Source: Komagataeibacter melaceti (lineage in GTDB: Bacteria; Pseudomonadota; Alphaproteobacteria; Acetobacterales; Acetobacteraceae). From it: a DNA stretch of 40,092 nt. The stretch spans positions 1 through 40,092 of the forward strand of contig NZ_QUWV01000083.1 in NCBI RefSeq assembly GCF_003403295.1, given 5' to 3'. Of the stretch, positions 18,331 to 21,870 are shown one piece after another (the first letter of the stretch is position 1; each line of letters begins with the position of its first letter). A model generated the notes under the pieces. It had not been told where the DNA came from, made no database searches, and was given only the letters and a program-made list of their open reading frames with translations. Both the position numbers and the translations under genes were made by a program.

Positions 18331-20316
18331 TTGCGCCGGACGCCTGCCCTTGTCCTGACACTTGGCCTGCTGGTGGCGGTGGTGCTGCCTGCGGGCATGC
18401 TGTGGATGCTGGACCGCCTGCTGCCGCCCGACCTGTCCCGCCTGCACGCATCCGCCCTGATCCTGAATGACCGGACCGGCGCACGGCTGGACGGGCGGAC
18501 CAGCGTGGATGGCATGTGGCGGCTGCCGCTTGCGGCCCCTCAGGTTGACCCGGTCTATCTGCAGATGCTGCTCCGCACCGAGGACCGGCGGTTCTACTGG
18601 CATCCGGGTGTTGATCCGCTCTCCATGGCGCGTGCCCTCGCCCAGCTTGTCATGCGCGGGCATATCGTCTCAGGTGGGTCAACACTGGCCATGCAGGCCT
18701 CCCGCCTGCTCAGCCCGCACCGGCACAGCCTGCGTGGCAAGCTGCTGGACATGGCCCGCGCCGTGCAGCTTGAATGGCGCTATGGCCGCAGGGGCGTGCT
18801 GGACATCTACCTGACCCTGACGCCGGAGGGTGGGAATATCGAGGGCGTCCGCGCGGGTTCCCTGCTGTATTTCGGACATGAACCCGATCATCTTGCACCA
18901 CAGGAAGCCGCGCTGCTGGTGGCCATTCCCCGGCATCCGACCACATTGCGCCCCGGCCGCCATAATGCACTGGCGCTGGCGGCGGCGCGTCAGGTGTTGC
19001 GTGGCACGGGGATGGGACAGGAGATGGAAAATGTCCCGTCTGGTCCCGTTCCCATGCCCCACGCGGCCCCGGCGCTGCTGGCCCATGCATGGTCCGTCGG
19101 ACTGCGCGATGTCGTGCGCACGACACTTGATGGCAGGCTGCAACGCATGCTGCGCGGCGTCGTGGCTGCTCGTGACGCGCCATTGCGGGGCACCTTCGCC
19201 GCCCTCGTCGTGCGGCGTGACGGGGGTATTGCTGCGTGGATTGGCGGCGGGGAACACCAGTGCCCGGGCTGCGCGGTCGATCTGGTCACGGCCCGGCGCT
19301 CACCCGGTTCCACCCTGAAGCCGTTCATTTACGGCATGGCGTTCGATCATGGACTGCTGACGCCGCGCACCCGGATCAGTGATGGCCGGATGAGCCTGTC
19401 AGGCTACGCCCCGCATGATTTCGACCAGAGCTTCCGGGGCGAGACAACGGTTGCGGATGCGCTCAGGCAGTCACTCAACGTGCCTGCGGTGCAGGCCCTG
19501 CGCCTGATCGGGCCGGATCGTTTCCTGTCCCGCCTTGCAGCCTGCGGTGTAGTGCCCCGGCTTCCGGGCCGGGATGTTGCACCCGGCCTTGCAATCGCGC
19601 TGGGTGGGGAAGGGATTTCGATATACGACCTCGCCACATTATATTCCGCCCTCAATCACGACGGGCAGGTGATGGCCCCGTATTTTGATGTGACCGGACG
19701 CGCGCCCGCCACCCGGCTGCTCGGCCCACGCGCGGCACAGGATGTCCGTACCATTCTGGAGGGCACGCCACCACCACCCGGCTCAGGCCAATGGAACCAT
19801 GTCGCCTTCAAGACCGGCACATCCTACGGCATGCATGATGCCTGGGCCGCGGGGGTGACCGGGCAGTGGACCATTATTGTCTGGGCAGGCCGCCCGGATG
19901 GCACGGCGGCGCCGGGTATTACGGGTCGCGCAACGGCGGCCCCGCTGCTGGCGCATATCGTCAGCCTGCTTGAACCGGACGGGAGTATTGCGGCATCCGG
20001 CGTGACACCCCACCATCAGGCCATAAGCTACCTGTCACCCGCGCTGCGTCGCCTGTCCCGGCCCGAGGGGCCGCAGATCATCATGCCCCAGGCAGGCAGC
20101 GAGATGGAGAGCCGGGCCGATGATGGCACCATGACCCCCATTGGCCTTGAGGCAGGCGGGGGAACGCCCCCTTACCAGTGGATGGTGAACGGAACGCGCC
20201 TTGATGTGCCGCCCGGAGCCGCCCCGTCATGGCTGCCCGATGGCGTGGGGTATGTCCATATTTCCGTCATGGACATGCATGGCCGCAGTGCTGCCGTTGA
20301 TGTCAGGATTCGCTGA
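18331..20316 (+). CDS. pbpC: Penicillin-binding protein 1C (bifunctional peptidoglycan synthase)
   Basis: This encodes 661 residues from a TTG at 18331, 7 bases after the macroglobulin stop, with GCGGA just upstream; no better start is in frame. A transmembrane anchor covers about residues 5-26. The glycosyltransferase (GT51) domain shows RTEDRRFYWHPGVDP (catalytic Glu84) and GGSTLAMQ. The transpeptidase has SPGSTLKP (nucleophile Ser327, Lys330), SLN (about residues 385-387) and KTGTS (494-498). The C-terminal domain after about residue 570 is the PBP1C-specific beta module. It polymerises and may crosslink glycan strands at the periplasmic face. It is somewhat shorter than the E. coli protein (about 770). 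The operon with an alpha-2-macroglobulin is conserved and suggests joint wall repair and defence. Confidence 0.95.
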   Translation: MRRTPALVLTLGLLVAVVLPAGMLWMLDRLLPPDLSRLHASALILNDRTGARLDGRTSVDGMWRLPLAAPQVDPVYLQMLLRTEDRRFYWHPGVDPLSMARALAQLVMRGHIVSGGSTLAMQASRLLSPHRHSLRGKLLDMARAVQLEWRYGRRGVLDIYLTLTPEGGNIEGVRAGSLLYFGHEPDHLAPQEAALLVAIPRHPTTLRPGRHNALALAAARQVLRGTGMGQEMENVPSGPVPMPHAAPALLAHAWSVGLRDVVRTTLDGRLQRMLRGVVAARDAPLRGTFAALVVRRDGGIAAWIGGGEHQCPGCAVDLVTARRSPGSTLKPFIYGMAFDHGLLTPRTRISDGRMSLSGYAPHDFDQSFRGETTVADALRQSLNVPAVQALRLIGPDRFLSRLAACGVVPRLPGRDVAPGLAIALGGEGISIYDLATLYSALNHDGQVMAPYFDVTGRAPATRLLGPRAAQDVRTILEGTPPPPGSGQWNHVAFKTGTSYGMHDAWAAGVTGQWTIIVWAGRPDGTAAPGITGRATAAPLLAHIVSLLEPDGSIAASGVTPHHQAISYLSPALRRLSRPEGPQIIMPQAGSEMESRADDGTMTPIGLEAGGGTPPYQWMVNGTRLDVPPGAAPSWLPDGVGYVHISVMDMHGRSAAVDVRIR

Positions 20317-20333
20317 TTGGGTAAGGACTGACA

Positions 20334-20408
20334 GGAGTTTTTGGGAGCGTCTTTTCTTTAAAAAGGCGATGTTTTCTGAAGCTTTTTGAAAAAAGCTTCA
20401 CCAGAAGC
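20334..20408. repeat. Dispersed intergenic hairpin repeat, copy B
   Basis: This second, longer copy of the element at 1305-1370 has two successive hairpins: 20348-20355 with 20361-20368, and 20378-20399. It lies between pbpC and the convergent tRNA gene. The flanks shared with copy A are GTTTTTGGG, AAAAAGGCG, TGTT..CTGAAG and CCAGAAGC. Confidence 0.75.
20378..20399. terminator. Bidirectional hairpin terminator within repeat copy B
   Basis: GAAGCTTTTT (20378-20387) pairs perfectly with AAAAAGCTTC (20390-20399). It lies 61 bases after the pbpC stop and 72 bases past the 3' end of the convergent tRNA gene, so it can serve both. Confidence 0.55.
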
Positions 20409-20471
20409 TTCCTGGAACAAGCGGGTTTTCGCCTGCCAAGGAGATGCTGTTGCGGAATATGTCGGGATTTG

Positions 20472-20777
20472 TGGTGTCCGCGGCGGGATTCGAACCCACG
20501 GCCCCAGGATTCATGCCACTTCGGCTTTCGCCGCCGCCATGGGTGCATGGCGTTCGTGGTCTGGACTGTCCCTTCACCATGGGCCACTTGCGGCCTACAG
20601 GTGCTGCCCATCCAGTCTCTACACCTTGCCGGTAAAGGAACCGGCCTTGGCTCGGGATCGGCACGGCGTTAGCCAGAGCGTTCCCCGAATTTGAGCAGAT
20701 CCGTCACGTGGTTTCCCGTCGTGACGCCCAATTGAAAACCAGGAATCCTGTGCTCTATCCGGCTGAGCTACGCGGAC
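20472..20777 (-). tRNA. tRNA-Arg(CCU), interrupted by a group I intron, CCA encoded
   Basis: On the minus strand the 5' exon (20777-20741, 37 nt) reads acceptor GTCCGCG, TA, D arm GCTC...GAGC, A, anticodon stem CAGGA, then TT and anticodon CCT. The 3' exon (20511-20472, 40 nt) reads AA, stem TCCTG, variable loop GGGCC, T arm GTGGG TTCGAAT CCCGC, acceptor CGCGGAC, A and CCA. All four stems pair (one T-G in the T stem). The spliced product is 77 nt with a normal TT-CCT-AA loop. It decodes AGG codons. The 229-nt interruption between U36 and A37 is a group I intron, so standard tRNA finders may miss this gene. The most similar established case is the tRNA-Arg(CCU) intron of Agrobacterium tumefaciens. 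Confidence 0.95.
20512..20740 (-). ncRNA. Group I (IC3-like) self-splicing intron in tRNA-Arg(CCU)
   Basis: This is a 229-nt intron without a protein-coding frame for a homing endonuclease. It begins after U36 of the anticodon and ends in G (base 20512), as group I introns require. The core is recognisable on the minus strand: AAATTCGGGGAA (20692-20681; P4 5' side), GCCGATCCCGAGCC (20662-20649; P4/P6 region), P7 strands GACTG (20617-20613) and CAGTC (20568-20564) forming the guanosine site. GGGAA (20717-20713) can pair with the exon end TTCCT, giving a U-G pair at the splice site as the probable P1 guide. A competing stem CGTCACG/CGTGACG flanks this guide. Assignment to subgroup IC3 is by likeness to bacterial tRNA introns. 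Confidence 0.92.
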
Positions 20778-20850
20778 ACACGCAGGCTTTCTAACCGAGG
20801 CCGCACGCCCCGGCAAGGTGTTTCAGGGTAGCGGCCCCATATTTCGTGGC

Positions 20851-21870
20851 CTAGCGCCGCCTGCGGTCATGCTGCGCCTGCGCACATAGCCGGGCGACAT
20901 GGCGCAGGCACAGCACGGTGTCCGGGCTGCCGGTCTGTTTGCAGGCCAGTTCCAGCGCCTGTGTTTCCTCCGCCGCGCGCAGCAGGGCGGCGGTAGTCCA
21001 TATGTTCAGGGCCTGCGCGAAACTGTCGGTCCGCTTGAAGAAGACGGGCGGGCGCAACTGCCGCATGGCGTCCGCCCGGCTCATGCCGCCATCCATTGCA
21101 ATCCGCGCGCGGCGCAGGCGGTGGATATGTGACAGCAGCACCCGTGCCAGCGCCACCGGGCTGCTGCCATCGGTGGTCAGGGCGCGTTCGGCCGCTGCAT
21201 CGGCCCCCTTGCGGTCACCCGCCATGGCGGCGAAGGCCGCGTCCTCTAGCGAAACGCCAGCGGCATCGCCCACGCAGGCCCTTACGTCCTCCAGCCCCAG
21301 CCTGCCGCCCTTTCCGGCAAACAGGGCCAGTTTCTCCACCTCGCTGCGGGTGGCGGCGCGGTCGGGTCCGGCGCGCTCGACCATCCAGCCCAGCGCATCG
21401 GGGTCTATGCCCACATCCTGTGCCGCCAGCATCTGCCGGATGGCACCTTCCAGCGCACGGCCTTCCTCGGGGTAGCAGCCGATCGCGCCGCACTGGCGGT
21501 CCTTTTCGGCAAAGGCGCGCAGCTTCGCGCGGGACGGCAGGCCCGGCGCTTCCATGATGACCAGCGTATCAGATGCCTGTGCAAGGCTGCGCTGCAGGGG
21601 GGCAAGCAGCCCGTCACCCGCCTCGCGCACCCAGATCACGCGCCGCCCCCCGCTTAGGGAAAGGGCGGTGGTTTCCTCCTCCAGCCGGTCATGTTCATCA
21701 CGGCCCAGCACCGCCACGCGGAAGGGATCGTCCAGTGCGGGGCAGATGGCTTTCGCCGCCGTTGTGGCGCGTTCACGGATCAGCCCTGCATCATCCCCAT
21801 GCAGGATGATGGCCCGCAGCGCGCCGGGTGCCTGCAACGTGGCGTTGATGGCCCGGGCGTCGATCTTCAC
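20851..21870 (-). CDS. holA: DNA polymerase III subunit delta
   Basis: This encodes 339 residues. The N-terminal region AIILHGDDAGLIRERA is the delta-subunit counterpart of the Walker A position (degenerate, as expected because delta binds no ATP). The following SLSGGRRVIWVREAGDG and the C-terminal helical collar (SHIHRLRRARIAM...VFFKRTDSFAQAL) fit HolA. Delta opens the sliding clamp within the clamp loader. The ATG overlaps the lptE stop by 4 bases (21867-21870), so the two are translationally coupled. The leuS-lptE-holA order is conserved widely in proteobacteria and supports the call. No other clamp-loader gene is in the window. Confidence 0.95.
   Translation of the reverse strand: MKIDARAINATLQAPGALRAIILHGDDAGLIRERATTAAKAICPALDDPFRVAVLGRDEHDRLEEETTALSLSGGRRVIWVREAGDGLLAPLQRSLAQASDTLVIMEAPGLPSRAKLRAFAEKDRQCGAIGCYPEEGRALEGAIRQMLAAQDVGIDPDALGWMVERAGPDRAATRSEVEKLALFAGKGGRLGLEDVRACVGDAAGVSLEDAAFAAMAGDRKGADAAAERALTTDGSSPVALARVLLSHIHRLRRARIAMDGGMSRADAMRQLRPPVFFKRTDSFAQALNIWTTAALLRAAEETQALELACKQTGSPDTVLCLRHVARLCAQAQHDRRRR

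Follow-up and report, generated by a model that had tools for sequence, protein, structure and literature searches.

A group I intron in the single tRNA-Arg(CCU) gene found in Komagataeibacter melaceti, and its kin in Acetobacteraceae

The window, which is the whole 40,092-nucleotide stretch of Komagataeibacter melaceti DNA analysed here, carries a tRNA-Arg(CCU) gene interrupted by a group I intron, and the best explanation is that this intron is functional and is very probably spliced to give a tRNA that reads AGG. The gene, its boundaries, its single copy in the genome and a core that is both conserved and co-varying were established directly from the window, its genome and its relatives. 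The kind is already known, in Acetobacteraceae too, and the gene in the window is ordinary for its kind. Its recognition corrects the tRNA set of the genome, as default tools make tRNA-Arg(CCU) seem absent.

The interrupted gene and its surroundings

Default ARAGORN found no tRNA in the whole window, and it likewise missed 19 of 19 interrupted loci of this kind. With introns allowed, the program placed a tRNA-Arg(cct) exactly at 20472-20777, with 229 bases of intron and a spliced length of 77 bases, and the check on the spliced product suggested in the first-pass annotation gave the same answer, the 77 spliced bases alone being accepted as tRNA-Arg(cct) with an encoded CCA. The gene lies on the minus strand, on which that annotation was silent, measures 306 bases including the CCA and is the sole full-length match in the genome. 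Its 5' exon (37 bases, 20741-20777, minus strand) ends in the anticodon CCU, and most of its columns are invariant in a 53-row alignment of relatives; the intron (229 bases, 20512-20740, minus strand), supported by ARAGORN in intron mode, a match to the Rfam model RF00028 and covariation in the 53 rows, has its final G at 20512; and the 3' exon (40 bases, 20472-20511, minus strand), placed by ARAGORN in intron mode, includes the CCA. The first-pass annotation had been right about where the gene lies, how long the insert is, where it is spliced out, its final G and the encoded CCA.

Upstream of the tRNA gene and on the same strand are a holA-like ORF, an ORF without a Pfam match and leuS, while a plus-strand ORF (18331-20316) contains the transglycosylase and transpeptidase domains of a penicillin-binding protein. 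The upstream ORF is taken for holA from reading its translation, and it has no Pfam match at 1e-5. A holA-like ORF is present in 36 of 114 loci tested and in 21 of 30 family loci (with flanks of up to 1.5 kb on either side), and a penicillin-binding protein gene in 2 of the 114.

Group I identity and core structure

The RF00028 model matches positions 20553-20746 on the minus strand with 34.3 bits and an E-value of 4.7e-7 (601 bases searched), and over the whole genome it finds this locus alone (E 6.5e-7). The covariance-model search proposed in the first-pass annotation is significant by E-value, yet its score falls below the gathering score of 50, and an Rfam scan of the whole window at gathering thresholds reported nothing. 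Among fetched relatives, the gathering cut-off was reached by 3 of 20 and an E-value of 0.001 by 14 of 20. The minimum-free-energy fold of the intron, of a type that omits the P3/P7 pseudoknot, does not stand out from shuffled sequences (z -1.10; 27 of 200 shuffles fold equally well). Taken together, ARAGORN in intron mode, the significant though sub-threshold Rfam match and strong covariation support the first reading, in which tRNA-Arg(CCU) carries a group I intron that begins after U36 and whose last base is G.

All of P3, P4, P5, P6, P7 and P8 are formed in the window sequence, and the features that follow lie on the minus strand. The internal guide sequence AAUUGGG (20727-20733) pairs through GGG with the exon CCU to form P1, with a U.G pair at the splice site, and through AUU with the exon AAU to form P10. 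Behind it, the P2 hairpin (20703-20725) has a GAAA loop; its two helices, helices 2 and 3, are paired in 98.4% and 96.2% of alignment cells, respectively, with two-sided changes in six of eight pairs. P3 (5' strand 20693-20698, 3' strand 20604-20609) is 100% paired, and three of its six pairs have changed on both sides. The six pairs of P4 (5' strand 20683-20688, 3' strand 20652-20657) are all invariant and give no covariation evidence either way, and the five pairs of P7 (5' strand 20613-20617, 3' strand 20564-20568) are also invariant. Both core elements had been recognised in the first-pass annotation, and both hold over the 53 rows. The 5' strand of P7, 20613-20617, is presumably the guanosine site of the intron. 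Finally, the P9 domain (20516-20559) consists of two hairpins, one with a GAAA loop, and its helices 11-13 are 98.1-100% paired with two-sided changes in 9 of 12 pairs. Introns of subgroup IC3 are small and have GNRA loops in P2 and P9; the window intron, whose sequence shows a length of 229 nt and a GAAA loop in each of P2 and P9, may belong to IC3, the subgroup named in the first-pass annotation and one that this anatomy and the literature suggest.

The alignment behind these figures holds the 55 resolved family genes minus two near-copies (L008 and L013), the 55 being those fetched and resolved from at least 97 interrupted family genes. Across 58 named core pairs in the 53 sequences, 98.5% of cells are standard pairs and 31 of the 58 pairs show two-sided changes. 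Column shuffles gave 89.5% paired cells, and none of 500 scored as high as the alignment on any of five measures; sliding the partners by 1 to 3 columns left only 29.2 to 44.5% paired, a comparison that favours the real pairing, since the window's own row served to draw the structure. P1, P4, P6 and P7 are invariant in the 53 rows and add no covariation for or against. The pairs of P1 are kept in 53/53, including the U.G at the 5' splice site. Of the three P10 pairs in the window, the outer two are kept in 53/53; 14 of the 53 relatives have C.A at the middle position. At the intron boundaries, a preceding U and a final intron G occur in 55/55 resolved family genes and in 70/70 resolved genes of named records. 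ARAGORN gave another anticodon, in another splice register, to 14 of the 55 family genes, which were reassigned by the CCU/final-G rule; under the CCT rule, 55/55 are CCU genes and their introns end in G.

Splicing and the reading of AGG

The genome has 45 tRNA matches to RF00005, and ARAGORN on the loci covering them named one Arg(tct), one Arg(ccg) and one Arg(acg). No second CCT gene was found among those loci by ARAGORN, nor a second copy by DNA search of the genome, an assembly of 248 contigs listed as 100% complete; the sole other DNA match to the gene is 24 bases inside a tRNA-Pro(ggg) locus. A second intact tRNA-Arg(CCU), which the first-pass annotation had named as evidence against its reading, was thus looked for in the genome and not found. 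That annotation had also called AGG rare, in agreement with its count in 22 window ORFs picked by length and codon-position G+C, where it occurs 39 times among 11,321 codons, 873 of which encode arginine.

In the proposed mechanism, the gene would be transcribed as a precursor in which the 229-nt group I intron sits between anticodon U36 and A37. The intron would fold into the standard core, its guide sequence pairing with the anticodon CCU as P1, and a guanosine bound in P7 would attack after the splice-site U. The freed U would then attack after the last intron G, helped by P10, and the joined tRNA-Arg(CCU) would read AGG. Transcription, both reaction steps and splicing free of protein are what we infer. 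Support for a working intron comes from the ARAGORN intron call, the E-value of the RF00028 match, the constant U and G at the intron boundaries, the covariation in 53 rows, the invariant P1, the intact exons and the lack of any second CCU gene among the searches above. It also comes from the tRNA-Arg(CCU) intron of Bartonella bacilliformis, BbgpI, which splices in vivo and in vitro according to an excerpt of its description (PMC7717549). Several points weigh against it, namely the Rfam score below cut-off, the ordinary free energy, the C.A in the middle of P10 in 14/53, the invariance of P4, P6 and P7, and a promoter scan of 20300-20900 that returned no promoter-like site. A terminator scan of the same interval returned one terminator-like stem, on the plus strand, and shuffles give as many.

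An alternative is that the intron has degenerated and lost its splicing activity, leaving the tRNA gene a pseudogene and AGG to be read by tRNA-Arg(UCU), which could do so by wobble. The genome does hold a tRNA-Arg(UCU) gene, and the rarity of AGG would suit such a loss; however, the exons are intact and nearly invariant in 53 relatives, and the core pairs are kept, which makes this alternative very unlikely. The window intron is more probably a working ribozyme. It could be speculated that its splicing limits AGG decoding.

Distribution in Acetobacteraceae

The survey of tRNA-Arg(CCU) in related genomes that had been proposed along with the first reading found the interrupted gene in at least 97 of 249 family genomes sampled (95 as one long match and 2 as two pieces), and a pattern search found an uninterrupted CCT gene in at least 121 of the 249, two further pattern matches having been removed from this count as Arg(TCT). 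Among the matches listed, no genome was seen with both forms, and 31 of 249 fit neither. These 31 genomes lend the pseudogene alternative some ground, as the gene may be dispensable in places, yet all five genomes sampled from the genus keep the full-length interrupted gene.

Judged by eye, both forms occur in seven genera (g17, g21, g37, g50, g64, g68 and g76). This bears on another possibility, in which the intron would act as a regulator and magnesium or guanosine supply would set the splicing rate and thereby tune AGG decoding. A single CCU gene, a rare codon and the persistence of the intron in many genomes are in keeping with such a role; the many family genomes without the intron and the mixed genera fit a neutral passenger instead, and regulation appears very improbable. 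Within individual genera the intron is present in some genomes and absent from others, with the empty sites intact, which makes the family a good natural series for following how so small a ribozyme is gained and lost in a single-copy tRNA gene.

One genome (G169) contains, apart from its full interrupted gene, a 3' intron piece with the 3' exon (locus L104, around 1992-2098), where ARAGORN finds no tRNA and names only an adjoining Met tRNA.

The anticodon stem and introns in other tRNA genes

The anticodon stem is CAGGA in 55/55 resolved interrupted family genes, whereas uninterrupted family genes have CAGGA in 65/121 and CCAGA in 48/121; a Fisher test run alongside ignores relatedness and is not taken as proof. 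Outside the family, the association is not absolute, as 71 of 80 named loci listed have CAGGA and 9 have other stems, none of them CCAGA. The association could reflect shared descent. A tentative and rather doubtful proposal is that one ribozyme lineage, seated genus-wide in tRNA-Arg(CCU), also moved within the family into several other tRNA genes, read as Leu, Thr and Arg(UCU), and that it persists in Arg(CCU) only where the stem is CAGGA/UCCUG. If true, the stem restriction would imply that splicing involves the host stem, which would limit the sites open to the intron.

Related intron cores were also noted in other tRNA genes, at 14 loci of 13 family genomes (L092-L103, L107 and L108). The names ARAGORN assigns to them vary (Leu, Phe, Ser, Thr, His and SeC), and by reading they are mostly tRNA-Leu, with two Thr(GGU) and one Arg(UCU). 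In the tRNA-Leu(CAA) gene at L107 (1908-2203), the intron seems to follow C34, with a C-G pair replacing the usual U.G at the splice site.

Known systems and distribution beyond the family

The tRNA-Arg(CCU) group I introns of Alphaproteobacteria include that of Agrobacterium, and Paquin et al. reportedly described in 1999 that these introns are sporadic among alpha-purple bacteria. The intron of tRNA-Leu sits at another site than that of tRNA-Arg(CCU). Among the closest known systems is BbgpI, which interrupts the same tRNA at the same site after the anticodon CCU in a gene of 308 bases (c42404-42711), against 306 bases here, and neither gene has an annotated tRNA; BbgpI belongs to another bacterial order and has splicing data (PMC7717549). 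Within the family but in another genus, a table footnote for Gluconacetobacter diazotrophicus PAl 5 records that a group I intron homologue interrupts one tRNA (Arg), and the footnote gives no anticodon, structure or sequence (PMC4596401, excerpt). The cyanobacterial tRNA-Leu(UAA) intron (PMC4033280, excerpt) and the Azoarcus tRNA-Ile intron (PMC3984707, excerpt) are also small group I introns in a tRNA anticodon loop, in other tRNAs.

A sample of 385 genomes of the class gave 277 matches, most of which cover half of the tRNA or a piece of the core; near full-length matches outside the family occur in four genomes (G592, G298, G528 and G255). Among named genomes, a pattern scan found at least 119 stretches; the 80 loci listed come from Bartonella, Azospirillum, Gluconobacter, Komagataeibacter, Rhodobacter, Mesorhizobium and others, and include MAGs labelled as a cyanobacterium and a planctomycete. 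The first-pass annotation had placed such introns in Agrobacterium and a few other proteobacteria; the kind is indeed known, but its spread is wider than stated, being scattered in other alphaproteobacterial families. A 3' exon was found for 70 of the 80 named loci, the other 10 being left out of the identity comparison and the tree. By the CCT rule the insertion follows CCT in 69 of these 70, the last, the cyanobacterial MAG, having another anticodon stem, and the site after the anticodon CCU is the same in 55/55 resolved family genes.

Compared with 14 chosen introns, the window intron is between 71.6% (the cyanobacterial MAG) and 90.2% (Komagataeibacter melomenusus) identical, and the introns of three Bartonella records, which do not include BbgpI of B. 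bacilliformis, are 73 to 80% identical to it. In a tree of 69 intron cores, from which L132 is absent because no core matched the search pattern, the window intron groups with Komagataeibacter introns (98/93), and the Acetobacteraceae introns need at least four changes. With a bootstrap that had not yet converged, 39 of 63 inner branches are open, and vertical descent is therefore not separated from transfer between families.

Partial matches to the intron core also occur on mobile elements. At 60-80% identity, part of the core is matched by 1,272 plasmid records, mostly enterobacterial, and in two enterobacterial records examined (among L004, L112 and L113) the match adjoins an AAA ATPase gene and aac(3)-IId, beside which the core match on a Bradyrhizobium plasmid does not lie. 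For tmrB-linked introns, no mention of "group I intron" was found among the literature matches listed. Three phage records match part of the core only, including Gordonia phage Daredevil (NC_048021.1, 41865-42074), with 70.6% identity over 66% of the query.
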